Origin: Caballeronia sp. SBC1
Lineage (GTDB): Bacteria; Pseudomonadota; Gammaproteobacteria; Burkholderiales; Burkholderiaceae
Assembly (NCBI RefSeq): GCF_011493005.1
Contig: NZ_CP049160.1
Location: 216,711 to 280,710, forward strand
Length of the DNA stretch: 64,000 nucleotides
Reading direction: 5' to 3'
This document shows positions 2,575 to 54,942 of this stretch, piece by piece. The notes beneath the pieces are model-generated. The model was not told where the DNA came from. It worked only from the letters and a program-made list of their open reading frames with translations, and ran no database searches. The position numbers and the translations under genes were made by a program. Numbering within the stretch: the first letter of the stretch is position 1; every line of letters starts with the position of its first letter.

Positions 2575-2623
2575 TGCTTAGTTCATCGCCCGGTAGCACG
2601 GGCTTACACAAGGAGATTTCTCA
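2575..2623 (+). promoter_or_regulatory. Structured 5' leader element, copy 1
   Basis: Reads TGCTTAGTTCATC, then the hairpin GCCCG(2588-2592)/CGGGC(2599-2603), then TTACAC, AAGGAGAT and the ATG at 2624. It is one of five copies in the window in front of different genes, with the stem changing in a compensated way between copies. The Shine-Dalgarno is directly 3' of the hairpin, so it is positioned to control translation or leader stability. Confidence 0.7.
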
Positions 2624-3241
2624 ATGAGCAGCGAAACGAACATTCGGGCGAGCGGGGTAGCGATTGTAATAGCAGGTTCGGTCGACGGAGGGTTGAACTC
2701 AGACGTAGTGCTTTCGTCCCAGGCGCTGCGCGACCGATACCCTAGAAAGGGCAGCATGCCAGCGCAGTTCGTCGAGAAGCTGTACGAGCTGCGTGAAATG
2801 GAAGTAAGGCACTTGGCACTGTTACCCGAGATCTCGCCAGCGCATCTCCATGGTCTGGATTGGGGCGCCCGCGCCCTTGTCGCAGATCTGCTCTTCACGC
2901 GTTGCAACGCCGATGCACAGCGCGCGCTGTCAGATGATTCGCACCATTTCGTGCGCAGCACCGCTGCCCTGGTTGCCAGGAGAGCGGCGGACGCTGCACC
3001 TCATCCATCAAAAGCCACCGCATCACGAGTCGATGCGATCGATCGCCGGGAAGCAATCGCGCAGGAGCTCGCCGCGGCAGGGTGTCGCATGGAATACGAC
3101 CCGGGCGCAATGCCTGGCGAGGGACATTTGCTGATTCGCGTCGCGGATGGTGAGATGGTCGACGAGCCAGATGATCCGATCGCACAACTTGCGAAGGAAT
3201 GGTCCGATCTTACCGATGCAGCCGAGAGTGACGAAACCTAG
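2624..3241 (+). CDS. Hypothetical plasmid protein behind leader copy 1
   Basis: 205 residues, soluble, unrecognised. The start is set by AAGGAGAT ten bases upstream, part of the shared leader. The C-terminus is acidic (EWSDLTDAAESDET). The gene is followed by its own terminator and then by leader copy 2 and the next gene, so it is a self-contained unit. Products of the five leader-bearing genes show no obvious sequence similarity to each other by eye. Confidence 0.75.
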   Translation: MSSETNIRASGVAIVIAGSVDGGLNSDVVLSSQALRDRYPRKGSMPAQFVEKLYELREMEVRHLALLPEISPAHLHGLDWGARALVADLLFTRCNADAQRALSDDSHHFVRSTAALVARRAADAAPHPSKATASRVDAIDRREAIAQELAAAGCRMEYDPGAMPGEGHLLIRVADGEMVDEPDDPIAQLAKEWSDLTDAAESDET

Positions 3242-3256
3242 CGATTGCAAACCACG

Positions 3257-3289
3257 AACCGCGCTTCCTTTCGAAGCGCGGTTTTTTTT
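3257..3289 (+). terminator. Rho-independent terminator
   Basis: Eleven-base perfect stem (AACCGCGCTTC/GAAGCGCGGTT, 3257-3267 and 3273-3283) with a five-base loop and a run of eight Ts, 15 bases after the stop of the 2624 gene. Confidence 0.95.
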
Positions 3290-3306
3290 GTCCTCACATC
3301 TCCTGG

Positions 3307-3352
3307 GCTCAGTTCATTGTCCGCAGCCGCGGACTTACTTTCAGGAGATCGA
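3307..3352 (+). promoter_or_regulatory. Structured 5' leader element, copy 2
   Basis: GCTCAGTTCATT, hairpin GTCCGC(3319-3324)/GCGGAC(3329-3334), TTACTTTC, AGGAGAT, ATG at 3353. Relative to copies 1 and 4 the second stem pair is T-A instead of C-G, with both sides changed together, which supports a folded RNA. It begins less than 20 bases after the T-run of the upstream terminator. Confidence 0.7.
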
Positions 3353-4078
3353 ATGATGGAAAGCGTACAGGTTGAAGTTGCAGACAAAGCAATCGAGATT
3401 CTTCAGCGAACCCGCGATGGCGACACGTTGGAGGCGAGAGACCTCAAACTCGTCGAACAGGCGGTAAACGGTGCGTTGAACGAGGCGGGCAGGGATCTTT
3501 TCGAAAAGCTCCACAGCTCGGTAATTTCGGGAGCGTATGCAACCACGCGTCACTGGTTTCACGACATAGAGCATCTGACTCGTGATCATCAAGGGTACGT
3601 GTTCTGGAAGGGCAGGCAGATCGAGCACTACTCGCACAGCGATCCTGCCGAGAGCAGACGCGACGCGCTCGAGCTTGCGGAGCGCTGTCGTACGCTCGAG
3701 TCAAAAGGGTTTCGCGTCTCAGGAGGCGCACTCAGTCGGATCTGTATGCTGCAAGCGCCGGCCGACACCCCCTGGCTACTCGCCTTGCAGCGATATTACT
3801 GCTTCTTTGAACCTTCGGAAGGGCGATTCCCACTCACGGATGAGATCTACGGAATCTTCTACCGTACCTCAGCAGTCGGCGGTGTGGTAGTTGTTTCCCG
3901 CAATGCAGAAGGGCTCCTGATCCAGCGACGGGACAGCGGGTATCAGGCTTTCCATGAGTTGCAGGACAGTGGACTCACGAGTATGAAGGTCGACCCAGAC
4001 TATGCAGAGATCTGTCGTAGATTGGAGCTGATGGACATCACGCCAGCAGTACTTGATGCTGCAATTTCCGGAGCGTAG
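3353..4078 (+). CDS. Hypothetical plasmid protein behind leader copy 2
   Basis: 241 residues (two adjacent ATGs, 3353 and 3356). Soluble, mixed composition, unrecognised; N-terminus VQVEVADKAIEILQR, aromatic-rich middle (RYYCFFEPSEGRF). The start is fixed by AGGAGAT from the shared leader. Flanked by the leader upstream and a strong terminator downstream, so monocistronic. Confidence 0.75.
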   Translation: MMESVQVEVADKAIEILQRTRDGDTLEARDLKLVEQAVNGALNEAGRDLFEKLHSSVISGAYATTRHWFHDIEHLTRDHQGYVFWKGRQIEHYSHSDPAESRRDALELAERCRTLESKGFRVSGGALSRICMLQAPADTPWLLALQRYYCFFEPSEGRFPLTDEIYGIFYRTSAVGGVVVVSRNAEGLLIQRRDSGYQAFHELQDSGLTSMKVDPDYAEICRRLELMDITPAVLDAAISGA

Positions 4079-4105
4079 GCGACAGCCTTACCACCACAAC
4101 ACAAT

Positions 4106-4138
4106 GCCCGCGATCTCCCCGAGACGCGGGCTTTTTTT
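4106..4138 (+). terminator. Rho-independent terminator
   Basis: Stem GCCCGCG(4106-4112)/CGCGGGC(4125-4131) with inner ATCTC/GAGA and seven Ts, after the stop of the 3353 gene. The stem resembles the terminators at 52872, 54498 and 55064. Confidence 0.95.
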
Positions 4139-4161
4139 CGTCAGTTGCATTCACCTTTCAT

Positions 4162-4322
4162 GGTCAGATGGGCGGGTCAATGGCGGACGGAACGTCCGGC
4201 GCAGCGAACCATTGACGCACCCATCTGACCATTGACGCTCAAGGGCATGTGGCTGGCATAGCTGTTCGATGCCAGCCACCGAGCCCGTCCGGCGGCAAGG
4301 ACTTCCCCGCCTGCGGGCGGGG
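4162..4322. repeat. Cluster of inverted repeats in a non-coding region (candidate oriT or ssDNA origin)
   Basis: Three structures lie within 160 bases. (1) 22-base arms at 4162-4183 and 4209-4230 matching at 20 of 22 positions, enclosing a small CGGAC/GTCCG hairpin. (2) A perfect 11-base stem GTGGCTGGCAT(4249-4259)/ATGCCAGCCAC(4269-4279) with a nine-base loop. (3) CCCCGCC(4305-4311)/GGCGGGG(4316-4322). ACCATTGACGC is also directly repeated at 4208-4218 and 4228-4238. No gene is supported from 4139 to 4485. Proximity to the relaxase block makes oriT or a single-strand initiation site the leading inference, unproven. Confidence 0.6.
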
Positions 4323-4485
4323 TTAGGGGTGGGCAGTCTGGGGTGCGAGTTCCGGTCAGCATCACCTCCGAGCTCACCCTTGTCAACGGCTCCCCGCTTC
4401 GTCACCGTCTGCGAGCACTGGATGCCTACGCAACCATACTGACACATCATTCTGGAGCACGCCGCAGTCCAATAGCACACTGCGA

Positions 4486-4776
4486 CTAACCGTGTTCCGA
4501 CACTTTGCGAGCTCGCGAAATGGCCTCAGGGCGCTGGAGCAGCGTGGCCGCGTCGACGTTCAGCGCGATTGCGATCTTCTCTATGTTGTCGATCGAGACA
4601 TTGATTCGAGCTCGCTCCACCTGACTGATAAATGTGCGGTCGAGGTTTGCAGCGAAACCAAGCTGTTCCTGTGAGACGCCCGTTGCGACGCGACAAGCCC
4701 GTACGTTGTAGGCAAGCAGCTCGCGTAGTGTCTTGGTCGGCTGGGATGGAGAAGGCGGTTTCAGTGTTGGCGACAT
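4486..4776 (-). CDS. XRE-family HTH transcriptional regulator
   Basis: 96 residues. A Cro/cI-type helix-turn-helix spans about residues 17-75: LRELLAYNVRACRVATGVSQ-EQLGFAANLDRTFISQVERARINVSIDNIEKIAIALNV, the usual recognition-helix layout ending in a core of hydrophobic residues. Short Pro/Ser-rich N-terminus and basic C-terminus. Likely a plasmid repressor; the palindrome at 4975-4991 upstream is a possible binding site. Confidence 0.9.
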   Translation of the reverse strand: MSPTLKPPSPSQPTKTLRELLAYNVRACRVATGVSQEQLGFAANLDRTFISQVERARINVSIDNIEKIAIALNVDAATLLQRPEAISRARKVSEHG

Positions 4777-4974
4777 GAACGCAATGCTTTCAATTCGAAG
4801 TATTTACATCCACGGCTTTTACATCACGTATGCGCGATAGGGCGGACCCCAATCAGTATGAAAGACCTTGTCAATCAACTGATGGGATGAATTGGGCCAG
4901 ACCTCTGTCTCTGTGCCGTCTGCGTGGCCGGCACTGAAGCGGTCTTGCAACGGGTCGATCCAGTCGTCTAGTGT

Positions 4975-4991
4975 CTGTATGCGGAATACAG
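4975..4991. promoter_or_regulatory. Palindrome, possible operator
   Basis: CTGTAT-GCGGA-ATACAG, six-base arms with a five-base centre, between the two HTH genes. The CTG-CAG spacing is eleven bases, one too many for a standard LexA box, so control by one of the neighbouring HTH proteins is more likely. Confidence 0.3.
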
Positions 4992-5068
4992 CGGGCCGCC
5001 TCTACTGTTCGGTCATACGACTACCGGGCGGCCGTGGTTTCGCGCGACGGGCAATGGACACGCAGTTA

Positions 5069-5554
5069 TTAGGGCTTCGGGATCGGTTTATTAAATGCGT
5101 TCTCCGGCAGCTCCATGTGTGCGTGCTCGAGCAGAGTCCGCTTCGCGTACAGTTCGTACATCATCACGAAGGCCAATTGAACGCTTTCTGGTGTTTCGTT
5201 CCAGTCATCAGGGCTGGGCACAAGAACGTTTGCAGATGGATCGAGTTCCAGCTTTCTAAGCGCTAAGGCCAGAGATTCCTTTACGCCGTGAGAGACCACG
5301 CAGTCTTGCGCAGTGATGTAATTGCACCAGACCAGGATTGTCAGGACTGGCACTCCAAGGAACTTGGCAAACTTCTCTACATTGCTTTTGTCTCCTCCTC
5401 CTAGCCATCGGTCTCCAGCAAGAATACCTACCACGTGCGAGTAGGACAGTCCAAGAATCTCCGAGAGTCTTCGGGCATCAATGTTATGGCGAGCCATCAT
5501 CGTCTTGACCTGGACGATGAGTTGACGCTGCTTCTCGAGGTAGGGGTGATCCAT
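5069..5554 (-). CDS. HTH (XRE/Cro-like) DNA-binding protein
   Basis: 161 residues. Residues about 9-75 look like a helix-turn-helix domain (QVKTMMARHNIDARRLSEIL, then GLSYSHVVGILAGDRW and VEKFAKFLGVPVLTILVW). The C-terminal half carries a conserved-looking helix (ESVQLAFVMMYELYAKRTLL). Shares no close similarity by eye with the 4486 regulator. Probable backbone regulator; targets unknown. Confidence 0.75.
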   Translation of the reverse strand: MDHPYLEKQRQLIVQVKTMMARHNIDARRLSEILGLSYSHVVGILAGDRWLGGGDKSNVEKFAKFLGVPVLTILVWCNYITAQDCVVSHGVKESLALALRKLELDPSANVLVPSPDDWNETPESVQLAFVMMYELYAKRTLLEHAHMELPENAFNKPIPKP

Positions 5555-5776
5555 GTTTTATGTCCTAGGGACGAAAGTAAAAGTTGAGGTCGATCACTTA
5601 TATACTCAATTTACGAAAATCTCACAATTGCTTTCTAAAATCTGTTGCAGGTTCCGCCTGGTAGGCTCTAGCAGGCCAAACGCCGGAATCTTCGGCAAAT
5701 TTTTCGTGGCCTGGCCAAAATTATTTCTTGCGGAGATTTTAAACTAGGATGGGAGTTCCTCAAATGGGAGCTTTCC

Positions 5777-6823
5777 ATGACCGAAAAGTCCATCACATTA
5801 CTGTCTGTTGCCGCACGGTCGGTACCTGCAAAACACCAGTACTACCGGGGCTTCAAGAACGTTGTCTACCTCACGGGTCACATTCATTCGCTCGAGGGAG
5901 CAACGATCTGGATTCAGCTGACGAATAACCTGAATCTCCTCGTTCCCGTGACGGTGCCACCCGGAATCCGGCTACCGAGACCGTTCAAGGTGCGTGAGGC
6001 GGTAAAGATGATCTGCCAGGTTCAATCTCACACGGAAGAGAGCGGAGAGCCGGGCCTTCGCGTGTACGCCCGTTCGTTTGAACGGCCGAACGTCCTCGAG
6101 CTACCGAACAAAAGCGCGTTTGAGAAGGTCGTTCCAGAACGCGCGCCTGAGGACAAAGACTTCCGCCCCTACGGTAGCGGCTACCGCGCGAGCAATGCGT
6201 GCAATCAGGTGAAGATTGCAGGCATGGTGGTGGGCATCAGCGTTCGAAAGACGGAAGTGGATCCGGGTGGCGAGGTCGTTCAGTCTGGGGCCTGTACGAT
6301 TCTTTTGCGACAGGACACCGAGGAGGAAAACGTGATTCCCGTCAAATACTATGGGAAGCTCGCCGAGACAGTTGCTTCGTACATCAAGCCCGGCGACATG
6401 ATCTACGCCGAGGGCAAATACCGGGTAAAGCCTGTCGAGATCGAAGGTGAACTGGTCGACGGTAAGCCTAAGGTGCGCCGCGTTCCGTTCATTCAGATCA
6501 TGGAACCATCACTGCCGACTGCGATCGACATCGTTTATATCGGGGGTCCCGTAGACAAATACCCATCCTGGATGATCGAGATGCATCAGCGCTTCAAGCG
6601 CGGTGCGAAGCGCGCAGAACGCCCCGCGAAGCAAACTCCCGCGGCGCCGACTTCCACTGCGTCAGAAGCGTCAACGACCACTGGAGTGACGCCAGCAAAA
6701 CGCGAAGTTGACGTAGCGACGCTAGACCTCGAAAGCCATCCTCTGTGGGCGACCCTTTCCGCAGAACACCAGCAAATGTGCCGTGATAATCCAGAAGACC
6801 GGAAGATGATTCTTGGGGAGTAA
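5777..6823 (+). CDS. OB-fold single-stranded DNA-binding-like protein
   Basis: 348 residues. Two OB-fold-like stretches are visible: about residues 26-107 (NVVYLTGHIHSLEGATIWIQ to GLRVYARSFERPNVLELP) and about 140-230 (NQVKIAGMVVGISVRK to GDMIYAEGKYRVKPVEI). The last 60 residues are Ala/Thr-rich linker then HPLWATLSAEHQQMC. The acidic tip typical of chromosomal SSB is absent. GGGAG lies six bases before the ATG. The stop is four bases before topoisomerase III, so the protein probably coats or delivers transferred ssDNA in the same step as the topoisomerase and relaxase. Function is inferred from fold impression and context. Confidence 0.6.
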   Translation: MTEKSITLLSVAARSVPAKHQYYRGFKNVVYLTGHIHSLEGATIWIQLTNNLNLLVPVTVPPGIRLPRPFKVREAVKMICQVQSHTEESGEPGLRVYARSFERPNVLELPNKSAFEKVVPERAPEDKDFRPYGSGYRASNACNQVKIAGMVVGISVRKTEVDPGGEVVQSGACTILLRQDTEEENVIPVKYYGKLAETVASYIKPGDMIYAEGKYRVKPVEIEGELVDGKPKVRRVPFIQIMEPSLPTAIDIVYIGGPVDKYPSWMIEMHQRFKRGAKRAERPAKQTPAAPTSTASEASTTTGVTPAKREVDVATLDLESHPLWATLSAEHQQMCRDNPEDRKMILGE

Positions 6824-6826: not shown

Positions 6827-9436
6827 ATGAAATCCCTGATCATCGCGGAGAAGCCGTCGGTCGCGAAGGACATCGCCAAGGCGCTCAATGTACGGGTTGT
6901 CGGGGACCATTGGGAAAACGACTCCCTGGTGATCTCCAATGCGGTCGGGCACCTTCTGGGGCTGACTGCGCCCCCCGAAATTGCGAGCCAGTTCCCGGTC
7001 ATTCCGGAACGCTTTGCGTTCGAGGTCCGGGATAAGGCGCAGAACCAGTTGAACAAGCTGATTGCGCTGATGAAGCGACCGGATGTCGACACGGTGATCA
7101 ATGCGTGTGACGCTGGTCGCGAAGGAGAGGAGATATTCCGGCTGATTGTGGAATACGCTCGCACATCCAAAACGCTAAAGCGGATGTGGCTTCAGTCAAT
7201 GACGCCTGGAGCCATTCTCCAGGCCAGCAAAAACCTGCGCAGTGACGCGCAGATGCGGCCACTCGCCGACGCTGCCCGAAAGCGCAATGAGAGCGACTGG
7301 ATCGTTGGGATCAATGTCACCCGCAGCTGTTCGCGTATACGCGGCGAGCAAACCACTGCTGGCAGGGTGCAGACGCCGACCCTCATGATCGTCGTGGCGC
7401 GCGAAGAAGCGATCCGCGCTTTTGTGGCACAAGAATACTTCGAGGTTCGGGCGCGTTTCACGCTTGCCGCCGGCGCGTATGAGGCAACGTGGCACTGCCC
7501 TGCGGAATTGGTTAAGCCTGGCGCGCCGGCAGAGAGGTTGTGGGAACGGGGAAAGGCGGACGCGATTCTGTCCCGATGCACCGGACGCAATCCGGATCGA
7601 ATCGAAGAAAACACAACCCCAAGCCGCTCGGCCGCACCGGTGCTCTTCGACTTGACAACGTTGCAACGCGAAGCGAATCAACGTTTTGGCCTCTCTGCGA
7701 ACAACACGCTGAAGATCGCGCAGGCCCTCTATCAGACCCACAAGGTTCTGACCTATCCTCGCACGGATTCGCAGGCGTTACCGGAAGACTATGTGCCGAC
7801 CGTAACCCGGACCGTCGAGGCCCTTGCGACGCAAGGATATGCAGAAGCTGCGCGGCGGGTGCTCGATAACGGGTGGATCAGGCCGACAAAAAAGGTCTTT
7901 GATAACAGCAAGATCTCCGACCACTTTGCCATCGTTCCCACTGGATCCAATCCACAGGGTTTGTCGGCAGACGAGGCGAAAATCTACGATCTGGTTGCAA
8001 GGCGTCTGCTCGCCGTCTTTCATCCAGATGCGGAGTTCGCAGTGACGCTGCGTACGGCGTGGATTGGCGATGACCGATTCGTCGCACGCGGCAAAGTGCT
8101 TGTCGCACAGGGATGGCAAGCCGTGTATGGGGACGGCCCTGCGAAGAAGGCCAAGAAGGGTACTGACGGCGACGCGGAGGCCAAGCTACCAGCACTGGGC
8201 GCAGGTGAGCGAGGCAAGACCGAGTCCATGAAAATCAGCAAGGGAGAAACAAAGGCGCCGCCTCGGTTCAACGAGGCAACGCTACTCTCCGCCATGGAGC
8301 ATGCAGGAAAGGACGTGGCTGACGATGCGCTGCGCGAAGCGATGGCCAAGAAAGGACTGGGCACTCCGGCCACGCGTGCGGCGACGATCGAGAAACTGCT
8401 CGAGGAGCAGTACATGACGAGAGAGCAGCGCAACCTCGTTCCCACAGCAAAGGCCTTCGAGCTGAAGGCGCTGCTCACACGGCTTGATGCAAAAGTGCTG
8501 CTTTCGCCGGAGCTCACGGGAGATTGGGAGGCGCACCTGAAGCGTATCGAGGAGGGGCAGGCGAAGGGGTCGGAATTTCTCGATGGAATCAAACGCCTGA
8601 CGGTCGATATCGTCAACCGTAGTCTACAGGTACCGCCCGCCGCAACGTGTGAAGCATGCGGCAAGCCCATGATGCGGCGCGAGGCAAAGGGAAACAGGGG
8701 CCATTTCTGGGGATGCACAGGCTTCCCCGCGTGTTCGGTAACCCGTCAGGACGTCGATGGCAAACCCGGCGCGCAGCAGGCCGCACCTACTTCGACTTCA
8801 CCAACCGGCGAGACCTTCGCTTGTCCGACTTGCCGCAAGCCCATGATCAGGCGCACAACCCAGAATGGGGCTTTCTGGGGCTGCAGCGGTTACCCCAAGT
8901 GCAAGACGACTCTTCCGGACGCTGACGGGCGGCCGGGCGAGGCACGGACATCCCGTGAGACACCGGGGAAAGTGACCGCGACAGCGAAGGGGGTCACATT
9001 TCCGTGCCCAAAGTGCGGCAAAGCGCTCATGCAACGAAAAGGCGCAAACGGCCCCTTCTGGGGTTGTACGGCCTACCCGACGTGCAAGGCGACGTTGCCC
9101 GACGATAACGGCAAGCCGGGCGTCAGAACGGCCGACGTCGCGGGAAAAGCAACCCGTTCTGAGGTCCAACGGCTGACCTTGCCGCCGGCTCGGCCAAAAC
9201 CTCCGATAGGAGCCGCCGAGACGTCGGCGAAGTCCGCAGCCGTCGCCGTCGCCGTCGCGGAAAAACCCGCATCGTCGACGCCGGCGAAAGTAACCGGTGG
9301 ACCTATCGGATCAACGTGTCCGGGTTGCCAGAAAGGCACGCTCACACTCCGCTCCGCGCGCGCGAGTAATCGCCCATATGCCGGTTGTACTCATTTCCCC
9401 GAGTGCAAGTACTTCTACTGGATGGATAAGCCGTGA
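6827..9436 (+). CDS. topB: DNA topoisomerase III (type IA), TopB/TraE-like
   Basis: 869 residues. Type IA topoisomerase: the TOPRIM domain begins SLIIAEKPSVAKDIAKAL and has its acidic DAGREGE block at about 95-101; the catalytic tyrosine is in TYPRTDSQALP at about 310. After about residue 600 there are four CxxC...C zinc ribbons (near 607, 665, 726 and 831), each with a WGC or AGC core, more than in chromosomal TopB and typical of plasmid enzymes. Plasmid topoisomerase III decatenates and unlinks DNA during replication or transfer. It sits between an OB-fold protein and the relaxase; its stop overlaps the relaxase start in a GTGA. Confidence 0.95.
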   Translation: MKSLIIAEKPSVAKDIAKALNVRVVGDHWENDSLVISNAVGHLLGLTAPPEIASQFPVIPERFAFEVRDKAQNQLNKLIALMKRPDVDTVINACDAGREGEEIFRLIVEYARTSKTLKRMWLQSMTPGAILQASKNLRSDAQMRPLADAARKRNESDWIVGINVTRSCSRIRGEQTTAGRVQTPTLMIVVAREEAIRAFVAQEYFEVRARFTLAAGAYEATWHCPAELVKPGAPAERLWERGKADAILSRCTGRNPDRIEENTTPSRSAAPVLFDLTTLQREANQRFGLSANNTLKIAQALYQTHKVLTYPRTDSQALPEDYVPTVTRTVEALATQGYAEAARRVLDNGWIRPTKKVFDNSKISDHFAIVPTGSNPQGLSADEAKIYDLVARRLLAVFHPDAEFAVTLRTAWIGDDRFVARGKVLVAQGWQAVYGDGPAKKAKKGTDGDAEAKLPALGAGERGKTESMKISKGETKAPPRFNEATLLSAMEHAGKDVADDALREAMAKKGLGTPATRAATIEKLLEEQYMTREQRNLVPTAKAFELKALLTRLDAKVLLSPELTGDWEAHLKRIEEGQAKGSEFLDGIKRLTVDIVNRSLQVPPAATCEACGKPMMRREAKGNRGHFWGCTGFPACSVTRQDVDGKPGAQQAAPTSTSPTGETFACPTCRKPMIRRTTQNGAFWGCSGYPKCKTTLPDADGRPGEARTSRETPGKVTATAKGVTFPCPKCGKALMQRKGANGPFWGCTAYPTCKATLPDDNGKPGVRTADVAGKATRSEVQRLTLPPARPKPPIGAAETSAKSAAVAVAVAEKPASSTPAKVTGGPIGSTCPGCQKGTLTLRSARASNRPYAGCTHFPECKYFYWMDKP

Positions 9437-11700
9437 TATCGCGTCAGCAGCCCATTATCAAGGCTACCGCGTTTGTCTCGATCTTCTGGTGGTGTCTGCT
9501 GACGCTGTGGCACGCCGGCTGGAGCTTGAGAGATATGGTGTTGCACGGCGCGACGATGGGCTGGGAATATTCTCTCGCAGTCATCGTTTCCGTTGCAGCC
9601 GGTATTGCCGCAGGCTCTGCGGTCAGCACGTATTCGATCTGGTTCGACAGGCGCCAGGTGCAAAAAGCGCTGAAGGGAAGGATCGAGCGGGGTGTCAGCA
9701 TTACGATCGGACCCATACCGATTCATCTCGGTGAGTTGCCGCGCGACGACAAGTCGCTTTCAGAGCATGACGTCGCGGCAGTCCGCGAGATTCGCGAAGA
9801 CGGTTCAACCGGCTTCCTGACCCTGTGGCACACGCATTTCGACTCGCGTGCACCGGAGCACAGCAGGCTCATGTACGCGCTGGAGCGGGTGATGGCAAAA
9901 CACCGTGCCCTGCCAGCGACTCATGTTCCAGGAGGCCACGGCGGTCGCAATCTGCTCGTTCATAGCCTGCTGGTTTGCTGGTACATGGTGAAGCTGGCTC
10001 CGTCGCACACCTACAACGGCACGATCAAGCTGCCTGACTTCAAGATCACGTTAAAGCTCAAGGAACCAGCGTATCAGTTCGACGGTGACGACCCGCTTAT
10101 CGCACTGGTGGGACTCGCGCACGATATCGGGAAGATCGAATGCTACGAGTACGATGACAGTGGTGCGCTGACCGGTTGTCGTCGTGACCATGATCTGACG
10201 GGCTCGCGCATACTCGCGCGGATGCCGGAATTCTGGGATCTGCCTGACGATGACCGCGATACGCTATCGCTTGTAGTTGGGCATTACCACCATCCCCAGG
10301 ACATGCCCACTCTCGATGGGTTCGAGGTCCTGTCCGATCGCAATCACGCGATGCTCGAGCTGCTGATCCGAGCGGATGTTCTCTCGTCCAAGCGCGAAGC
10401 GGGCCTGAATGCTGCGGCGGCAAAAGGCGAGCTGGGCGGCGAGAGCCAGTTTGTCGAAACAATTGAAGGCAAGGATCTCTGGAAGGCGGTCGAATCCGTC
10501 CTGACGCGCGTTGGCACGATCAACGGTCGAACGGGCTCCGGAAACATCGGCTTCAAGTATCGCGACCCGGCTAGTGGCGCGAATCTTGTCTACCTCGTCG
10601 AGAAGGATTTCATTGACGCTGTCAGCGCCGAAGCGCGCGTCACCAACACCATTCAAGAACTCAGGAACGACGTATCCGCGGTCTCGAAAAAGGTGTTGAT
10701 GCTTTTCAACGATCGTGGCGTGCTGTACACGGATCGCGAACGCAGTCCCTCGACGGCACTCTATAACGTCCAGTTTTTCGCGGCGAAAAGCTACTGGGCG
10801 GACCGCGAGCGCAAGGTGCCTAAAAGCGGAGAAGAGCGGGGCGCGCCGGCGTTCCGGTTGGGCTCGGTCATTGTCATCCGGGCCGACACCCTTTTCCCTG
10901 CGCTCGGCCAGTTAGCGGATTTCGACAAGGTGCCCGTAATCGGCAAGTCGAGGCTGGGCATGGGCGGCGTTCGCAAGGCGGGAGGCGCCGATCGCACCAC
11001 TATCGCGGATCTTGCGCTCGGTGCCGAACTTCAGCCTGAAGTTACTGACTCGGCACCCGCGGGAAATGCAGGCGAGGAAGTGCCCGGTGGGTTCGACCCG
11101 CTTGGCGCCGCTCTTCAGGCGCAGGAGGTGATTCGGCGTGCGCAAGAGTCAACGGCGCCCTCGGCGCCGGCCGACGGGGAGGCCACTTCGGAAGCGAATA
11201 CTGACAGCGGCGACGGCGGCACGCCTTGGGACGACGAGGAAACACCGTGGGACGAACCGGATAGCGGCGGGTCAAGCCCCGGGGCTGACCCAGCACCGGA
11301 TTCATCTGAGTCGCCATTGGCGCCCGTTGATAACGGAGAAAATGCAACGCAGGATGGCGAGAATTCAGCCCCCCCTTCTGACGATCCAGCGCCGGCGCCG
11401 ACGTCGGGCAAGCAATCCCTGTCGCCACGCACCCTGTCAAAAGCGGTCCGTTCGATGCTGTGGACGGGAATATCGAAAGGGGAGCTCGTCCATCGCGAAC
11501 TTGCCGCCGATGATGATAGCCCGGGTAACAAGGTAATGTGCCGCACGGCCGACGTGAAAGCCTACATGGCCACGCGCTCGAAGCTTTCCTATACCTTTGA
11601 AGATATGGACGCGGCCATCAGGCAAGGTGTAGTAGATGGCGTGCTGGTCGTCGGTGTGTGCTATCAGATCCTGCGCGACGCACCGCGTGGAGGCGCATGA
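9433..11700 (+). CDS. traI: TraI-type relaxase candidate, MobH class with HD-like motifs
   Basis: 755 residues, GTG start overlapping the topB stop. N-terminus has two hydrophobic segments (about residues 10-30 and 37-60), suggesting membrane tethering. The TraI_2/MobH-type domain follows: LLVHSLLVCWYM with His near 176, GLAHDIGKIE near 229, and VVGHYHHP near 284, the pattern of HD-fold relaxases as in SXT/R391 and R27. Residues about 530-660 are a low-complexity Asp/Ala/Pro linker and the C-terminus (LSPRTLSKAVRSMLW onward) is a separate small domain. It would nick oriT and pilot the strand. No helicase motifs; a RecD-like helicase is encoded separately at 59.6 kb. An HD-domain enzyme of another function is the main alternative. 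Confidence 0.7.
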   Translation: MISRQQPIIKATAFVSIFWWCLLTLWHAGWSLRDMVLHGATMGWEYSLAVIVSVAAGIAAGSAVSTYSIWFDRRQVQKALKGRIERGVSITIGPIPIHLGELPRDDKSLSEHDVAAVREIREDGSTGFLTLWHTHFDSRAPEHSRLMYALERVMAKHRALPATHVPGGHGGRNLLVHSLLVCWYMVKLAPSHTYNGTIKLPDFKITLKLKEPAYQFDGDDPLIALVGLAHDIGKIECYEYDDSGALTGCRRDHDLTGSRILARMPEFWDLPDDDRDTLSLVVGHYHHPQDMPTLDGFEVLSDRNHAMLELLIRADVLSSKREAGLNAAAAKGELGGESQFVETIEGKDLWKAVESVLTRVGTINGRTGSGNIGFKYRDPASGANLVYLVEKDFIDAVSAEARVTNTIQELRNDVSAVSKKVLMLFNDRGVLYTDRERSPSTALYNVQFFAAKSYWADRERKVPKSGEERGAPAFRLGSVIVIRADTLFPALGQLADFDKVPVIGKSRLGMGGVRKAGGADRTTIADLALGAELQPEVTDSAPAGNAGEEVPGGFDPLGAALQAQEVIRRAQESTAPSAPADGEATSEANTDSGDGGTPWDDEETPWDEPDSGGSSPGADPAPDSSESPLAPVDNGENATQDGENSAPPSDDPAPAPTSGKQSLSPRTLSKAVRSMLWTGISKGELVHRELAADDDSPGNKVMCRTADVKAYMATRSKLSYTFEDMDAAIRQGVVDGVLVVGVCYQILRDAPRGGA

Positions 11701-14420: not shown

Positions 14421-14988
14421 CACCACTTCCTCCGTCGCTACCACCTGCACCGTCAGCGCCGTCCGATGCCCCACCACCACCACCTCCGCCGCTGCCATCG
14501 GAGGCGGGCGCGCAGAGCTGGGCCATGCTTGGAAATGACTGTTGAGCGGCCTTAGGGTTGACCGCTCCCCCGTTGGAGTAGGACGTCGCATATGATTGCA
14601 TGGCCTGAATCCAGGCTGCGCATGGTGTAACGGTTGAACCAGCGGGGAGGCCCATGGCTGAGAGCGCATTCGCCGCGCTTAGCGCGCCGCTTTGCATGGC
14701 ACTTGTTTCCTGCTGCGATGTATACGGTGAAGTGAGTGGCGCGTTCGTCATTCCGGTACTGCCAGCGTTCGCACCGCCCAGCGAACTGCCGACAAGACCA
14801 GTAGTACTCGCCGGAGTGCTACCGGCGGAGGAGACCAGTTGACCCGCTCCGTTCGCCTGCGACGTCACAGACGCGGACGCGCCGGCGGCGGCCGAAAACC
14901 CGTCTGATACTTGTGCTACCGCGCTGTCCGGTGTTGCCGCGACTGGCAGGCCGGAAAATAGCGTCACCCAGATTAGCTTTCTTCGCAT
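14410..14988 (-). CDS. Secreted low-complexity Ala/Ser/Gly-rich protein
   Basis: 192 residues with a signal peptide ending near AVAQ. The body is Ala/Ser/Gly/Thr-rich; only residues about 115-160 (VTPCAAWIQAMQSYATSYSN to MAQLCAP) look folded, with two cysteines. The tail is a Gly/Asp/Ser run. Placed 22 bases after TraU and overlapping the Sel1 gene. Probably an accessory, surface or periplasmic component; no family recognised. Confidence 0.7.
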   Translation of the reverse strand: MRRKLIWVTLFSGLPVAATPDSAVAQVSDGFSAAAGASASVTSQANGAGQLVSSAGSTPASTTGLVGSSLGGANAGSTGMTNAPLTSPYTSQQETSAMQSGALSAANALSAMGLPAGSTVTPCAAWIQAMQSYATSYSNGGAVNPKAAQQSFPSMAQLCAPASDGSGGGGGGGASDGADGAGGSDGGSGDGD

Positions 14989-34108: not shown

Positions 34109-34256
34109 GACGTCGTAGGTCGATTGTCCATGGGCCGCCTCTCGAGAGTGCGAATTTTTTCGTCGGTACGTTTTGGCAATAGACCTACGTGCGTGGGGCT
34201 CATTCAAGCGGCGCGGTTGGATCACGCAGCATATTTTCCGGCGAGACATCACCTGT

Positions 34257-34309
34257 GCTCAGTTCACCGCTCGCCTCAGCAGCGGGCTTACTTAAACAGG
34301 AGATTCACC
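34257..34309 (+). promoter_or_regulatory. Structured 5' leader element, copy 3
   Basis: TGCTCAGTTCACC, hairpin GCTCGC(34269-34274)/GCGGGC(34282-34287) with one T-G pair and loop CTCAGCA, TTACTTAAAC, AGGAGAT, ATG at 34310. The loop and flanks are nearly identical to copy 4 near 54.4 kb although the genes differ. Confidence 0.7.
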
Positions 34310-35344
34310 ATGGAAGTAAAAAGCGAAACACGTCTCTATGAATCGAGCGTCATTGGGAAAATAGATTACTTCCAAGCCCAGCGCATGATTGATGCCGCGG
34401 TCACAAAGGCGCGTGGCTCAGAAGTCGGCGCATATCTCACGGTTGATCATCCCGATGCAGACGTGGGCTTCCAATTCGTGATGGTTGGTCCTGATGGGCG
34501 GACAAACAGATTGCTTGCCTCGAAAACCCATCAGGATCGTCTGGACGCGCACTGGGGCGGATTTGTTGACGCGTACAGAGCCGCGGACGGGATGGACCCG
34601 AAGCTGAAAACGCATCCCGCGGAAGTTGCTAACCTGCGATCGCTGTATGAAGCTGCGCCGCTTGGCATGTGGCAAGTGGTGGACGGCGGCACGGCATACT
34701 ATCCGCTTGCAATCGCGTGTAACGAGCACATTCTATTGAGGTTTCATTCGTGGGACAGAGAGCGCGAGAAAAAGGCCGAGGCTATTGTGGAACTGCACAA
34801 TGCGTTGCCTGTGCTGTTTGCTTCGGCAGAGTCGGGAATCGATTTGGTCGCCGTACGTAAACTTCAATCTTTGCACGAAGGACTGCCAGCCGAACCTTGG
34901 TCGGTTCGGCAACGTGATGGTCGCAGCGCTGTAGCCGTGTTGTCCGGCAAGACACAGGTTATATCCTTCGATTCGTTTGAACCGGCTGCAGAATCGGTGG
35001 CTGACCTGGTCGTCCAGATGCATGCGGTGACGCCGCGCTTACTGTTCGCGGCAAAGGAGGCGGCTTTGATCAATCAAGAAATGCCAGAAACTCTGGGGAA
35101 GACGCGCGAGTACCTGTTTGACGCCAAGCTGGATGCGGCTGTCCGCATTCGCGCAGTGAGCGAATGCGCCGCACGAACAGCCCTTCGTACAAAGCTTGAT
35201 GCCGCAAGCGCAAACGTTGGTGAGATTCTCGGGCAGATCATCGTCTGCGAAGTAAGCATGAACGATGAGCCGCACTTGGCCGAAGTCGATGGCGAGGAAC
35301 ATGTCCCAGCTGGCAAGCTGGAAAGCCCATCGCCGGACATGTAA
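34310..35344 (+). CDS. Hypothetical plasmid protein behind leader copy 3
   Basis: 344 residues from the ATG preceded by AGGAGAT of the leader; the frame continues upstream without a better site. Soluble, no signal peptide. Contains an acidic hydrophobic stretch (AYLTVDHPDADVGFQFVMVG) and a helical C-terminal half. Unrecognised. Flanked by leader and terminator, so a stand-alone unit. Confidence 0.75.
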   Translation: MEVKSETRLYESSVIGKIDYFQAQRMIDAAVTKARGSEVGAYLTVDHPDADVGFQFVMVGPDGRTNRLLASKTHQDRLDAHWGGFVDAYRAADGMDPKLKTHPAEVANLRSLYEAAPLGMWQVVDGGTAYYPLAIACNEHILLRFHSWDREREKKAEAIVELHNALPVLFASAESGIDLVAVRKLQSLHEGLPAEPWSVRQRDGRSAVAVLSGKTQVISFDSFEPAAESVADLVVQMHAVTPRLLFAAKEAALINQEMPETLGKTREYLFDAKLDAAVRIRAVSECAARTALRTKLDAASANVGEILGQIIVCEVSMNDEPHLAEVDGEEHVPAGKLESPSPDM

Positions 35345-41860: not shown

Positions 41861-42968
41861 GGGGCGGTTTCAAACCGAAGCGCAACAGGAGGGGCTAGTG
41901 TTTAGAGCCTTGAGGTTGGCTTGCTGAGGCAAGTGTCGCAGCGAAGACCTCGAATGGCGAATGGAACGCGTGAGTGGCGCGCGGGCGGCTGTTCAGACTG
42001 TCGGCGATCGCGTCGAGTTCTTCCTGACTGTAGACCGATAGGTCCGTGCCTTTAGGCAGATACTGGCGCAGCAACCCGTTGGTGTTCTCGCAGGTTCCAC
42101 GTTGCCAGGGGCTATGTGGGTCACAGAAGTAGACATTCACGCCGGTGGCGGCGGCCAGCTCCTTATGCCGCGACATTTCTTTGCCCTGGTCGTAAGTAAA
42201 GCTTTGCCGTAAGGGCGCCACAATCGAATTGAGTTTGGCGGAGAAGCCCGCTAGCGCTGAAGCGGCGGTGGCGTCCTCCATCTTGGCAAGCAGCACCAGG
42301 CGGCTGGTGCGCTCGACCAGAACGCCTACAGAGGATTGGTTGTTCGCACCCTTGATGAAGTCGCCTTCCCAGTGACCTGGCAGCAGTCGGTCTTCAATTT
42401 CGGGCGGGCGCACGTGGATACTGACCATGTCGGGAATCTGTCCGCGCCGGTCGGTGCCCCGCGTGCGTGGCATGCGCGTGCTGTGGCCATGGCGCAGGCA
42501 GGCAATGAGTTGGCGGCGCAGTTCACCGCGCGGCTGAGCATAGATAGCCGTGTAGATGGTTTCGTGCGAGACGTGCTGGGTCGAGTCGGTTGGATACATG
42601 CGCTTCAGTGTGCCCGATATCTGCTGAGGCGACCATTTCCACTCAAGCAGGGTGAGAACGATGCGCCAGCAGACACTTTGCGGGCAAAGCTTGGCCCGAG
42701 GGCGTGACGCACTGCGGCGCGCGCTGCAAAGCGCTGCAGCAGGCACTGATGCATAGCCAACAGGAGAGCTGTTTCGCGTTAACTCGCGGCTGATAGTTCC
42801 CGGCGAGCGCCCAAGTATGCGAGCCATGGCTCGCATACTTGAACCCTGCAGATGCAAGCTTGCAATGATCAGGCGTTCTTCAGGCTGAAGTTGTTGGTAA
42901 GAAATTTTTTCGGGCATTGCGACACCTTATACGAGATAGGTGTTGCACTTCGCTTTTGAGGCCGCCTG
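41861..42968 (-). mobile_element. IS30-family insertion sequence
   Basis: About 1.1 kb bounded by imperfect terminal inverted repeats of 27-28 bases: left from 41861 and right ending near 42968, sharing GGCGG, TCAAA, CGAAG and GCAACA in the same order. Contains one transposase gene. Flanking target duplication could not be identified, so ends may be off by a few bases. Confidence 0.8.
41895..42917 (-). CDS. IS30-family transposase
   Basis: 340 residues. N-terminal IS30 HTH (LQPEERLIIASLHLQGSSMR, MARILGRSPGTISRELTRN). DDE core: GHWEGDFIKGANN (Asp), FTYDQGKEMSRH (Asp), ENTNGLLRQYLPKG (Glu), all intact. Full length for the family, so potentially active. Confidence 0.97.
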   Translation of the reverse strand: MPEKISYQQLQPEERLIIASLHLQGSSMRAMARILGRSPGTISRELTRNSSPVGYASVPAAALCSARRSASRPRAKLCPQSVCWRIVLTLLEWKWSPQQISGTLKRMYPTDSTQHVSHETIYTAIYAQPRGELRRQLIACLRHGHSTRMPRTRGTDRRGQIPDMVSIHVRPPEIEDRLLPGHWEGDFIKGANNQSSVGVLVERTSRLVLLAKMEDATAASALAGFSAKLNSIVAPLRQSFTYDQGKEMSRHKELAAATGVNVYFCDPHSPWQRGTCENTNGLLRQYLPKGTDLSVYSQEELDAIADSLNSRPRATHAFHSPFEVFAATLASASQPQGSKH

Positions 42969-51726: not shown

Positions 51727-51911
51727 TGCTTCGTCGCGATATGTCTATTGACAAGAGCCCGGCCAGGTTGATGGTTAGAACCTTCTCAGTGTACACGCGG
51801 ATTTGCCCGGGGCGACCCGGCTCGCGCCTAGCTTCGCAACATCGCAGGGGCCCCGCCGGGATAAAACCTGGTTGGCTATACCTCCGGCCACAACCTCAAC
51901 CTCAAAACTCC

Positions 51912-52772
51912 ATGCCAGAACAACTCACCCTCGCCGAGGGGACCACGACCCACTTCCCGTATCTCGGAGAGAACGAACCGGCCCTGCTGAAAATTCTCCG
52001 GGCTGCCGTTGTCGCGAACCCGGTAATGCTGGACCGGACGCTGCTGAACGGCTCGCACTACGACACCTTCCTCGGAGGGCTCAATGCGGGTACGATGCGC
52101 CTCTATTTGGATGTACCTGTGTGCCGCGTTCTCGCCACGCAACATAAGAACTTCGACAGCGATGCATCCACATGGCGCGCGGCGTTAGGCGCGCTCAAAG
52201 GCGAGAATAATTCTCACGTAAAGTGGGACGACAGACTACTGGCGTACCTCGAATCAGAAATCGGAGAACAGGTGTTTCCGTGCGATGCCGCCTCGAACAC
52301 CCTTCTCACGCTCGACGCGTGGGGAGGAGCGGTCTTCTGTTCAAACGGGGCACACAGGCTCATTGCGGGAATGGCCTGGCTCGCGGCCAAACATGGCGAC
52401 GCCGGCTTGCTCAGAAAAGTACGCGTGACTCACTACCGCCTGAACGAAGGAATGCTCAGGCTCATGGCCGACGCAGCGCGCCGTGGCAAGTCCATTAGCT
52501 TTGCCGGTCCCACGTGGAAGGGCCGCCTCGTCCGCATCCGCGGCAAATTCCTCACGAAATACTGGTTCGTCGATAAGGGGAGCGACCGGCCCCGGTCTAT
52601 TCGTCTCGCTGAGCTCCGTGGGCTCTTCGGAGTCGCAGAGGCCCCAGGCGAAAAGGTCAATGACGGGTTTATCGATTTTTGGCCATTCCCGGCTGAGCTT
52701 GCTTTGGCACTCCCGGATGACGGCTGGTTACAAGAACAACTCAAGGCTGAGCGATATGCGGCTGTCCAATGA
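51912..52772 (+). CDS. Hypothetical protein
   Basis: 286 residues from the ATG at 51912; the upstream part of the frame has no coding character. Contains WGGAVFCSNGAHRLIAGMAW, loosely like the nucleotide-binding HR loops of ParB-like domains, but the rest does not fit. Divergent from the 50650 gene with about 185 bases between them. Confidence 0.55.
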   Translation: MPEQLTLAEGTTTHFPYLGENEPALLKILRAAVVANPVMLDRTLLNGSHYDTFLGGLNAGTMRLYLDVPVCRVLATQHKNFDSDASTWRAALGALKGENNSHVKWDDRLLAYLESEIGEQVFPCDAASNTLLTLDAWGGAVFCSNGAHRLIAGMAWLAAKHGDAGLLRKVRVTHYRLNEGMLRLMADAARRGKSISFAGPTWKGRLVRIRGKFLTKYWFVDKGSDRPRSIRLAELRGLFGVAEAPGEKVNDGFIDFWPFPAELALALPDDGWLQEQLKAERYAAVQ

Positions 52773-52871
52773 AACTCGGTGTATGACCTATGGCTAATGG
52801 CGCTCAGCAGTCTCTGTGCGTTTTTTGGGGTGTGCATCGACGCGAACAAGATTCCACAATTCGAGGACAAG

Positions 52872-52906
52872 AAAAAACCCGCCGATCTCCGGAGAGATAC
52901 GACGGG
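52872..52906 (-). terminator. Rho-independent terminator
   Basis: On the minus strand CCCGTCGTATCTC-tccg-GAGATCGGCGGG then six Ts, downstream of the 52928 gene. Member of the CCCGC...TCTC/GAGA...CGGG terminator family. Confidence 0.9.
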
Positions 52907-52927
52907 TGTGGGTTGCGGGTTACTCGG

Positions 52928-54379
52928 TCACATGCGCGGTGACGAGGCCGATGCGCTGTCACTTGGGCCGGCTTCGGACGCATCGCAGAGACCGGCAGCG
53001 ACGTGCGCGTGCCCCGCGCGTGCCATCAACTGCAGCGCCCGCTCATACAGGCCGGCAGCCTCGGTCCTCGCCTTTAACGCCTCCTGGATCAGCCAATCAC
53101 GCTCGCTGACGCCAGGGGGGATGATGAAGGTGAGGTCCGACTCTTTCGTGTGCAGCACGAGAACACGATTCTGACCGCCGAGTATGCGGTCGATTCGCGG
53201 AGTCTCGTTCGCGCTTTCTGGCAGTTTCGCTTCCGGCAGTCTTAGCTTGAAACGCTCCACGCCCGAGCTCTCCGCCGCAATAAGAGCTTGGACAGCATGA
53301 GTCGCGGTCGGGTCACCGAAATTCGCCAGCATCTGAACATGCGTGGCAACAGCTTCGTCGTCGACAAAAAAAGAGTCTTCCCCACTACGCTGCAACTGGA
53401 GCTCCAGGCTGTTCCCCGACGACTCAAAAAGACCCCAACCTCGCGCATCTGCCGCAGCTGAATCTCCTTTCGTCCACTGATACTTCGGTAGTGTGTTAGC
53501 TTGTTCGGCAACCGCAGCCTCCCACGCTTCTCGAGCGACGCCGACACGAGCAAACTCGTATTCTCGCAGGTTGTGCAATCCGAACTCCTCCAAAGATTCC
53601 CCCGAATTGGCAGGCATGTCGTTGTCGGAATTCCATTGCACTACGCAGCCGTCCTTGTCGAGGCCGATCACTTCATCGCCCTGATATGGCGGCACTTGCT
53701 GATCACCCGCCGCGCACGTGGCCCACTCGGGTAGTCGATCAATCTCAAAGAGATCGAATGCCACCGGAGCTTCGCCTACCTTGTTCTCGACGAACAACAA
53801 CTTTGCGAGGTCATCCTTCTGGTCCGAGTCCGCTTCACACCAACTTTCGTAGCCCCAAACCTGCGCAGCCACCAGCCTCTCATTCGCGACGTCGACAACG
53901 ACACGGCACTTCACTTCCATGCGTCCGTCTTCGTTCCACGACCAGGTGTGATCCAGATCGCCCACAAACCAACGCGGCGTCTGCTCCTTCAAACCTGTCC
54001 GACTGCGTGGTGTCCCTGCGGCCATCCTGACGTCGACGATGCCATTCGAGCCGAAGTCATGCACGAAATCGTTTAGCGCAACTCGGCTGAGCTGGTCGAC
54101 TTCGCCAACGTGCGACAGGTCGTACAGGCCAGTGATCGAGAGATCTTCGGCTAATGCATCTTCGGAAAAACGTCCTAAGATGGCATCGTCGGCAGGCTCA
54201 TTTGCTTGAAAAAACAGGACAGCCCGGGTTCCAGGTATCACCTCGTGCTCAACCATGGCTACCCACAACCGCCGCGGCGACTCCCGATCGACGAGCGCTA
54301 TTGCTGTCCGGGACGCGTCCTGGTTGAGATGATGATGGTCCGCGTTGATGCGGTCGACGATACTCACTTTGCTTTCCAT
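52928..54379 (-). CDS. Hypothetical plasmid protein behind leader copy 4
   Basis: 483 residues, acidic, soluble, no signal peptide. Beta-rich N-terminal region (RRLWVAMVEHEVIPGTRAVL) and helical C-terminus (WLIQEALKARTEAAGLYERA). Unrecognised. The ATG follows AGGAGATTTCAAC from the shared leader; a terminator ends the unit. Confidence 0.7.
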   Translation of the reverse strand: MESKVSIVDRINADHHHLNQDASRTAIALVDRESPRRLWVAMVEHEVIPGTRAVLFFQANEPADDAILGRFSEDALAEDLSITGLYDLSHVGEVDQLSRVALNDFVHDFGSNGIVDVRMAAGTPRSRTGLKEQTPRWFVGDLDHTWSWNEDGRMEVKCRVVVDVANERLVAAQVWGYESWCEADSDQKDDLAKLLFVENKVGEAPVAFDLFEIDRLPEWATCAAGDQQVPPYQGDEVIGLDKDGCVVQWNSDNDMPANSGESLEEFGLHNLREYEFARVGVAREAWEAAVAEQANTLPKYQWTKGDSAAADARGWGLFESSGNSLELQLQRSGEDSFFVDDEAVATHVQMLANFGDPTATHAVQALIAAESSGVERFKLRLPEAKLPESANETPRIDRILGGQNRVLVLHTKESDLTFIIPPGVSERDWLIQEALKARTEAAGLYERALQLMARAGHAHVAAGLCDASEAGPSDSASASSPRM

Positions 54380-54432
54380 GTTGAAATCTCCTGTTTAGTA
54401 AGCCCGCTGCTGAGGCGGGCGATAACTGAGCA
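54380..54432 (-). promoter_or_regulatory. Structured 5' leader element, copy 4
   Basis: On the minus strand TGCTCAGTTATC, hairpin GCCCGC(54415-54420)/GCGGGC(54402-54407) with loop CTCAGCA, TTACTAAAC, AGGAGATTT and the ATG. Nearly identical to copy 3. Confidence 0.7.
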
Positions 54433-54497
54433 CTGGAGATGTCCCACCGGAAAATATCCGGGACGGCCACTGCCGGGCCGAACAACAGGAATAAAGC

Positions 54498-54526
54498 GCC
54501 CACCGTCTCCGAGGAGAACAGCGGGC
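54498..54526 (-). terminator. Terminator-like hairpin
   Basis: Minus strand GCCCGCTGTTCTC/GGAGACGGTGGGC, imperfect stem with G-U pairs and a weak T-rich tail (GCTTTATT), 17 bases after the stop of the 54543 gene. Same family as 52872 and 55064. Confidence 0.65.
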
Positions 54527-54542
54527 GTGGGTTACGGTTTGA

Positions 54543-54893
54543 CTAAGTGTGTGCGGACGGATGTTGGCGCTCAGTCACCTCGCCAACCCGGGCTTCGATG
54601 ACCCGCGAGATGTCGCTCAGATAGTTCGGCCGCAGCTCGCAATAACGGCGCAGCGAACCATCGAGTGGTAATACGGCCTGAAGCTGCGCGTGACTCAGCG
54701 TTTCGTGCGAAATGTTTTGCTCGCGCACGTACATCCAATGAGCGTCATGGGGTTCCAGATAATACCGGTGATCCCATTGGTCGGGCTCATCCAATCGGAG
54801 AATGCGCCGGCCGTGCCATTTCACGCCATTGTCGTTGGTCCAACAAACGACATCGCCGGGCTTAAACGCCGCCTGCACCACTTCCCTTTCCAT
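54543..54893 (-). CDS. Hypothetical protein behind leader copy 5
   Basis: 116 residues. AAFKPGDVVCWTNDNGVKWH and the aromatic-rich YYLEPHDAHWMYVREQNI suggest a small beta-barrel. Unrecognised. Start follows GAGGAG of the leader. Confidence 0.6.
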   Translation of the reverse strand: MEREVVQAAFKPGDVVCWTNDNGVKWHGRRILRLDEPDQWDHRYYLEPHDAHWMYVREQNISHETLSHAQLQAVLPLDGSLRRYCELRPNYLSDISRVIEARVGEVTERQHPSAHT

Positions 54894-54942
54894 GATTCAA
54901 CTCTCCTCGTGTGTAAGCTCGCTGAAAACGAGCGGATGACAA
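54894..54942 (-). promoter_or_regulatory. Structured 5' leader element, copy 5
   Basis: Minus strand TTGTCATCC, hairpin GCTCG(54929-54933)/CGAGC(54917-54921), TTACACACG, AGGAGAG and the ATG. The third stem pair is T-A where copy 1 has C-G, again with both sides changed. More divergent in flanking bases than copies 1-4. Confidence 0.6.

Follow-up and report, generated by a model that had tools for sequence, protein, structure and literature searches.

A recurrent plasmid leader cassette of Burkholderiaceae, predicted to mask the ribosome-binding site, may keep unrelated genes poorly translated until a factor acts

The window analysed here is the last 64 kilobases (kb) of contig C5 of Caballeronia sp. 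SBC1 (positions 216,711-280,710 of a contig of 280,710 bp), and our subject is a short leader that recurs in it in front of genes. The initial annotation had claimed five copies of one structured mRNA leader, and all five are present where they had been placed, each directly 5' of a start codon (at 2624, 3353 and 34310 on the plus strand and at 54379 and 54893 on the minus strand). The stems given for them and the AGGAG followed by the start codon also read as described. Two details have to be corrected: the supposedly shared AGTTCA is not found in all five, as copy 4 (54380) has AGTTA and copy 5 (54894) has TTTGTCA, and of the CTTAC placed directly after the hairpin, TTAC does lie directly 3' of the stem, while its C is the last stem base. 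A pattern scan for stem, TTAC and Shine-Dalgarno (SD) sequence over all of C5 returned nine candidates, these five included, and scans of the two leader-rich stretches of the contig indicate that they hold about 21-24 leaders.

Copy 1 (2565-2623, plus strand) follows a promoter-like T-tract at 2551-2558. Its 5' CCTTGTG (2570-2576) pairs with CACAAGG at the SD (2607-2613), and its inner stem is formed by GCCCG (2588-2592) and CGGGC (2599-2603), with TTAC at 2604-2607. In copy 2 (3296-3352, plus strand), the anti-SD ATCTCCTG (3298-3305) pairs with CAGGAGAT (3342-3349), the inner stem consists of GTCCGC (3319-3324) and GCGGAC (3329-3334), and TTAC occupies 3335-3338; the T-tract (3282-3289) doubles, as judged by eye, as the tail of a terminator-like hairpin of the upstream gene. 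Copy 3 (34246-34309, plus strand) has TATTTT at 34232-34237, pairs ATCACCTGT (34248-34256) with ACAGGAGAT (34296-34304) with one mismatch, and contains the inner stem GCTCGC (34269-34274) and GCGGGC (34282-34287), followed by TTAC (34288-34291). The remaining two copies lie on the minus strand. Copy 4 (54380-54442) pairs ATCTCCAGT (54432-54440) with ACAGGAGAT (54386-54394), again with one mismatch, and has its inner stem at 54415-54420 and 54402-54407, TTAC at 54398-54401 and TATTTT upstream at 54451-54456. Copy 5 (54894-54956) pairs CTCTTTT (54946-54952) with AGGAGAG (54901-54907), G-U pairs included, around an inner stem of GCTCG (54929-54933) and CGAGC (54917-54921), with TTAC at 54913-54916 and TATTTTT upstream at 54964-54970. 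Two diverged members were also found within the window, with their CAT at 59432 and 55403 on the minus strand. The first (59367-59448, with TTTATTTTTG, CATTTCCG and GGAG) precedes a gene for 262 amino acids (58578-59366) and has an orthologous leader at 263887 of the P. fungorum plasmid pBIL. The second is a leader-like stretch (55343-55420, with a T-tract and CATATCTCGTGCTTCG) that shows weak anti-SD pairing and precedes a 71-residue open reading frame (55127-55342).

Behind copies 1 to 5 lie genes for proteins of 205 (2624-3241, plus strand), 241 (3353-4078, plus strand), 344 (34310-35344, plus strand), 483 (52928-54379, minus strand) and 116 residues (54543-54893, minus strand). These had been described as unrelated, and BLASTP among them indeed detected no similarity. 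None of the five matched Pfam, PADLOC or NCBIfam at the limits used; the 483-residue protein has a weak match to a PHROG family of unknown function. The 205-residue protein has a pBIL relative (59% identity) and the 241-residue protein has relatives on pBIL and in genome G341, all of them leader-bearing as well; the 344- and 116-residue proteins have no pBIL relative. Domain scans of ten leader-gene proteins yielded a methyltransferase, a sub-threshold sacsin-like ATPase domain and a match to phrog_17487, a phage family of unknown function (leader gene pBIL 276681-277349), and little else. The 241-residue protein has no relatives in phage records or IMG/VR. The first 30 residues of the 483-residue protein weakly match a 295-residue protein behind the pBIL leader at 315027 (E 7.6e-4), as if leader and N-terminus had been joined onto different bodies.

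The initial annotation had overlooked an outer helix, in which the 5' end of the leader (CATCTCC) is complementary to the ribosome-binding site (AGGAGAT). In the best copies, ATCTCCTGT, just 5' of the motif first described, is complementary to the SD ACAGGAGAT, and the elements follow one another in the order anti-SD, conserved 5' loop (GCTCAGTTCATC), inner hairpin, TTAC and SD. Single-sequence folding places the outer helix in the minimum-energy structure of 8 of 12 leaders. A search of plasmids with a covariance model had been proposed, and two such models, R1 trained on three copies and R2 on 16, revealed further copies on pBIL and in G341. At E values up to 0.05, R2 finds 33 copies over 363 kb (nine on C5, 11 on pBIL and 13 in G341), 32 of which are distinct and all of which are followed by ATG; the five window copies, all in the R2 training set, have E values between 1.1e-10 and 3.5e-17. 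In the alignment of the 33 copies, 90.5% of cells are paired, compared with 25-51% when partners are slid, and 13 of 18 base pairs show a two-sided change. Such changes occupy 38 cells as opposed to 8.5 in shuffles, a number reached in none of 500 shuffles. Both helices contain G-U pairs, and the hairpin loop varies in length.

Because the alignment was fitted to the structure, a separate permutation test of duplex energies was run, in which the first 16 nucleotides (nt) from CAT, plus three before, were paired with the SD region and true partners were compared with partners permuted within the plasmid. Among 70 leaders scanned by their T-tract, true partners reach a mean of -8.86 kcal/mol and permuted ones -7.45 (standard deviation 0.28; 0/10,000), with p = 0.0004 for G341 (n=26) and 0.0001 for pBIL (n=22). 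Consistent with masking, the predicted unpaired fraction of the SD is 0.19 in the 33 model copies compared with 0.42 at 32 chromosomal AGGAG starts (p = 6e-5). A conserved, covarying anti-SD/SD helix is thus present, and its pairing attains -9 kcal/mol in 34 of the 70 scanned leaders; it is frequent, not universal. The earlier proposal of selection on RNA structure is supported by the covariation in the larger alignment and by the advantage of real partners over permuted ones.

The conserved block also extends upstream of the model. In 31 of the 33 R2 matches, a tract of at least four T ends 4-10 nt upstream of the match, compared with 1.7% of random backbone positions; at the corresponding offset, none of 32 chromosomal starts with an SD has one. 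The profile TWTTTTTTG-N6-CAT-N-TC was derived from 43 non-redundant leaders, themselves selected for T-tract and CAT, and 34 of these have a purine at -1; a -35-like signal was not found in 50 sequences. We infer from these sequence features that the T-tract may be a -10-like core and that transcription probably begins at or just before CAT. What copies have in common is limited to a block of about 75 bp that runs from the T-tract up to the start codon (13 pairs, orthologues included). Leaders preceding different genes are 76-93% identical, and the 16 bp that hold the T-tract are 50-88% identical; beyond the block, the values are 45-68% for the 84 bp on the upstream side and 49-57% for the opening 84 bp of coding sequences that are not orthologous (random baseline 50%, standard deviation 3%). 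Together with the unrelated downstream proteins, this leader-confined identity supports the idea of one shared signal. As the contigs are written, 36 of the 43 leaders lie on the minus and seven on the plus strand.

The leader is unevenly distributed. The strict T-tract scan detected 15 leaders in 1-48 kb of C5, seven in 215-280 kb and three in the intervening 167 kb; on pBIL it detected 25 in 200-320 kb and five in the remaining 317 kb. By comparison, seven were found in 400 kb of the other contigs of the same genome, none in 88 kb of B. cenocepacia pTY921B and one in 100 kb of a C. malaysiensis plasmid. R1 matches occur in at least 2 of 58 genomes of the genus, and R2 matches in at least 4 of 398 genomes of the family and at least 2 of 399 genomes of the order, namely the own genome and G684. 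These counts are lower bounds, because scoring was limited in each genome to the best 14 candidates for R2 and to at most 94 for R1, and because R2 misses a second class of leaders described below. The match in G684 lacks both the T-tract and AGGAG before ATG and was taken as chance. Nucleotide searches of PLSDB with the leaders retrieved only four P. fungorum plasmids, and a combined scan for T-tract, CATNTC and GGAGA over 299 genomes, drawn without G341, G392 and G029, revealed no further one in which the pattern is clearly in excess. The pattern CATCTCC-N-GGAGAT-N-ATG is present in at least 145 of 398 genomes, with ten occurrences in G392, five each in G000, G059 and G290 and four each in G341 and G369 among the matches listed; by itself it does not sharply separate carriers. 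A stretch running from TTTTTGAGTACCATTTCCCGGTACGT to GGAGA is recurrent in genomes of genus g10, including G243, G208 and G282. Near the end of locus L132 (contig C19 of G043), the near-palindrome CATCTCCTGTTCGATCTGCTCAGTTCATCAGGAGATG has an ATG downstream on either strand and is leader-like on both.

A second class of leaders came to light through a leader gene of 30 residues, found at 14530-14619 (minus strand) of locus L013 on C5 and at 282365-282454 (minus strand) of pBIL. It has relatives on 11 PLSDB plasmids, among them pMOL30, C. grimmiae p2, other plasmids of Cupriavidus and Paraburkholderia and one of Burkholderia, and carries no annotated feature in the ten records listed. Similar leaders surround it on pMOL30 and p2. 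A weight matrix of the first 26 leader positions, trained only on C5, pBIL and G341 and used at a threshold of 9 with the reversed matrix as control (control counts in brackets), gave 23 matches in 90 kb of the Caballeronia p2 (0), 8 in 40 kb of pMOL30 (0) and 48 in 270 kb of G059 contig C152 and parts of G290 contig C3 (2). The same matrix found 24 (0) in the leader-rich parts of C5 and 2 (0) in its rest, 26 (1) in 200-320 kb of pBIL and 4 (6) in its rest, 8 (3) in 400 kb of other contigs of the same genome, 1 (0) in 88 kb of pTY921B and 4 (1) in 100 kb of C. malaysiensis. The density on class-2 plasmids and contigs is therefore 18-26 leaders per 100 kb, as opposed to 2 on the other contigs of the own genome. 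Among 61 unique, uncurated class-2 leaders, positions outside those scored are also conserved, with T at -17 in 53 and G at -6 in 56, giving the upstream signature T-T-N9-T-G-N5-CAT. GCAAG occurs in 32 of the 61 (3.5 in shuffles) and in 1 of 43 class-1 leaders; TCAAC occurs in 17 of 61 (2.9 in shuffles) and in 13 of 43 of class 1 (2.8 in shuffles). The anti-SD/SD energy of class 2 is -8.84 kcal/mol compared with -7.64 for permuted partners (0/10,000).

Comparison of C5 with pBIL, which have collinear stretches in common, shows both retention and turnover of leader genes. Among the 21 leader genes of C5, a pBIL orthologue exists for 14 and is missing for seven, which include the genes behind window copies 3, 4 and 5. 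It had been considered that homologues of these genes might lack the element at the same place; from C5 to pBIL, the strict scan accepts 11 of the 14 orthologues, and in the remaining three a leader is recognised by the covariance model or by eye. In the reverse comparison, 11 of 16 pass, and in the other five the leader is diverged or absent. The description of the downstream genes as accessory holds for copies 3, 4 and 5, which border on or lie within a stretch where pBIL has no collinear genes, and fails for the plasmids as a whole, in which the shared backbone has the highest density of leaders and the other parts have few. At 10.2-10.7 kb of C5 (L013) and 276.5-277.5 kb of pBIL, leader genes lie between collinear genes in both plasmids; no pBIL relative exists for the genes behind the C5 leaders at 10603 and 10316, and pBIL carries different leader genes there, at 277405 and 276553, an apparent exchange of genes behind leaders. 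A part of the window without collinear pBIL genes also encodes a transposase-like protein, in which HTH_38 and an integrase core are the recognised domains (window 41895-42917, minus strand). Elsewhere in the window, a 755-residue protein (9433-11700, plus strand) has an HD-domain match below threshold; we take it to be possibly a MobH-type relaxase, because the typing line of pBIL lists no relaxase. The ParM protein has no relatives in IMG/VR.

We favour, with a modest degree of confidence, the reading that plasmids carry these leaders as cassettes, that the mRNA begins at the anti-SD, and that it yields little protein until a factor acts. The element would be a 5' leader cassette of about 55-65 nt, located mainly on plasmid backbones, with transcription probably starting just before the conserved CAT from the promoter-like T-tract (TWTTTTTTG-N6-CAT in class 1, T-T-N9-T-G-N5-CAT in class 2). 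The first nucleotides of the mRNA, CAUCUCC, would pair with the ribosome-binding site GGAGAU and close the outer helix, which would enclose the inner hairpin and conserved unpaired segments (class 1: GCYYAG-UUCA and UUAC; class 2: GCAAG and UCAAC). With the start site masked, translation would be low by default. The conserved unpaired bases suggest a common reader, and a trans-acting factor that recognises them could open or lock all copies together, which would constitute a translational regulon.

Several observations weigh against this reading. The pair counts derive from alignments fitted to the model. The folding energies of 12 leaders are ordinary relative to dinucleotide shuffles (z -2.33 to +1.39), and since single-leader energies are not unusual, the case rests on comparison. 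SD accessibility in 43 non-redundant leaders differs little from shuffles (0.31 and 0.38, p = 0.0097), and for C5 alone the duplex test is weak (p = 0.03, n=22). Thirty-six of the 70 T-tract leaders pair more weakly than -9 kcal/mol. Yet C at +5 is retained by 32 of these 36, as it is by 31 of the 34 strongly paired ones, and 21 of the 36 retain TC at +4/+5; CAT itself was a search criterion. Because weakly pairing leaders largely keep it, the CATNTC motif must serve something besides pairing. In class 2, TTAC occurs in 3 of 61 leaders (6.9 in shuffles), compared with 17 of 43 in class 1 (7.4 in shuffles), and just 2 of 61 have an inner stem closed by GCAA, which speaks against the two classes forming one family. 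Finally, no trans factor was found, and no systematic search for one was made; pMOL30 is stated to encode no sigma factor (PMC7563307).

The persistence of CATNTC in weakly pairing leaders would also be expected if the conserved bases act as DNA. The T-tract, CATNTC and the bases downstream would then make up a promoter and an operator bound by a regulator that the plasmid encodes, and the match between CATCTCC and the complementary SD would be secondary. The separate upstream signature of class 2 and the lack of a -35-like signal in class 1 fit such an arrangement. However, real anti-SD/SD partners outperform permuted ones in both classes, and two-sided changes, G-U pairs in both helices and a variable hairpin loop are not what a dimer operator, which would need fixed spacing, predicts. 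We therefore regard a purely DNA-level element as unlikely, if still worth serious attention.

Near-identical, sharply bordered leaders before unrelated genes might alternatively be kept mainly because identical terminator-promoter-leader blocks permit the swapping of gene modules. This is reminiscent of the promoter early stem-loop (PeSL) cassettes of T4-type phages, described in passages of PMC4503421 as repeated intergenic blocks of promoter and terminator and tied to module shuffling. The seven C5 leader genes without a pBIL relative, and the different leader genes between collinear flanks at 10603 and 10316, speak for such exchange, as does a terminator-like stem that directly abuts the T-tract in 10 of 43 leaders (2.6 in shuffles). 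The borders here are sharp and genes turn over, with the stem in those 10 leaders only; the conserved block differs from PeSL cassettes in including a structured, SD-masking and covarying leader. Pure recombination repeats would not covary in their helices, and most orthologues keep diverged leaders in place. As the main explanation, recombination thus appears improbable, although it and a translation-masking leader are not mutually exclusive.

Leaders that sequester the SD are known in general from riboswitches, thermometers and autoregulated leaders. The likeness lies in an upstream anti-SD that pairs with the SD and in an inner conserved part that could bind a factor; the difference is that one leader serves many unrelated genes of one replicon, without a known ligand and with a predicted stability that hardly depends on temperature. 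An RNA thermometer that melts with temperature could account for the imperfect SD-masking helices, mismatched in several copies, but the predicted SD accessibility is nearly flat, changing from 0.17 at 20 C to 0.22 at 50 C, which makes a thermometer very improbable. We are just as doubtful about a promoter active on single-stranded DNA during conjugative entry, like those of the Frpo type. F-type transfer genes are present on the backbones, and two pBIL leader genes resemble establishment functions (an ArdC family protein and a methyltransferase), yet in single-stranded DNA folds the T-tract is mostly unpaired (mean 0.31 paired; above 0.5 in 7 of 43), and leaders occur on both strands, though mostly on one.

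The initial annotation had named radC and STAXI RNA as possible families, candidate structured RNAs of proteobacteria as is the leader here. Neither family was recovered: the best of seven weak radC RNA (RF01754) matches of the own genome, none of them on C5, reached 18.8 bits with a gathering threshold of 40 (best 150 of 527 first-look candidates scored), and STAXI RNA (RF01728) was matched neither by the window nor by any of nine leader stretches at E values up to 10. The plasmid setting alone favours membership in either, which the Rfam searches contradict at their sensitivity and which we dismiss. STAXI, described near DNA-handling genes in passages of PMC2864571, consists of repeated pseudoknots, whereas the leader here consists of nested hairpins. 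The same source tabulates radC and, without an Rfam accession, a Burkholderiales-1 motif, a candidate RNA from the same order. No Rfam 15 family exceeded its gathering threshold in the window or in the loci L115-L117 with class-2 leaders, and in the nine leader stretches, three sub-threshold matches at E values up to 10 (0.93, 6.2 and 9.9) fell on terminators or T-tracts or on the opposite strand. We met no description of the leader in the open-licence literature searched.

The predicted transcription start can be checked without new experiments, because class-2 leaders lie on pMOL30 of Cupriavidus metallidurans CH34, a strain for which two transcription-start studies have been published (PMC7563307 and PMC9045368). 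One might tentatively speculate, against the balance of probability, that several megaplasmid lineages of the Burkholderiaceae run a translational regulon, in which dozens of stand-alone genes carry the same modular SD-masking leader and one plasmid-specified factor reads the GCNNAG / UCAAC loop. These genes would be silent in the established host and released together, transfer being one possible occasion. Many genes of large plasmids are uncharacterised and have no obvious common control. A shared, recognisable leader would unite such genes in one regulon and give a handle on the timing of their expression, and it would add a candidate RNA family that matches nothing in Rfam.

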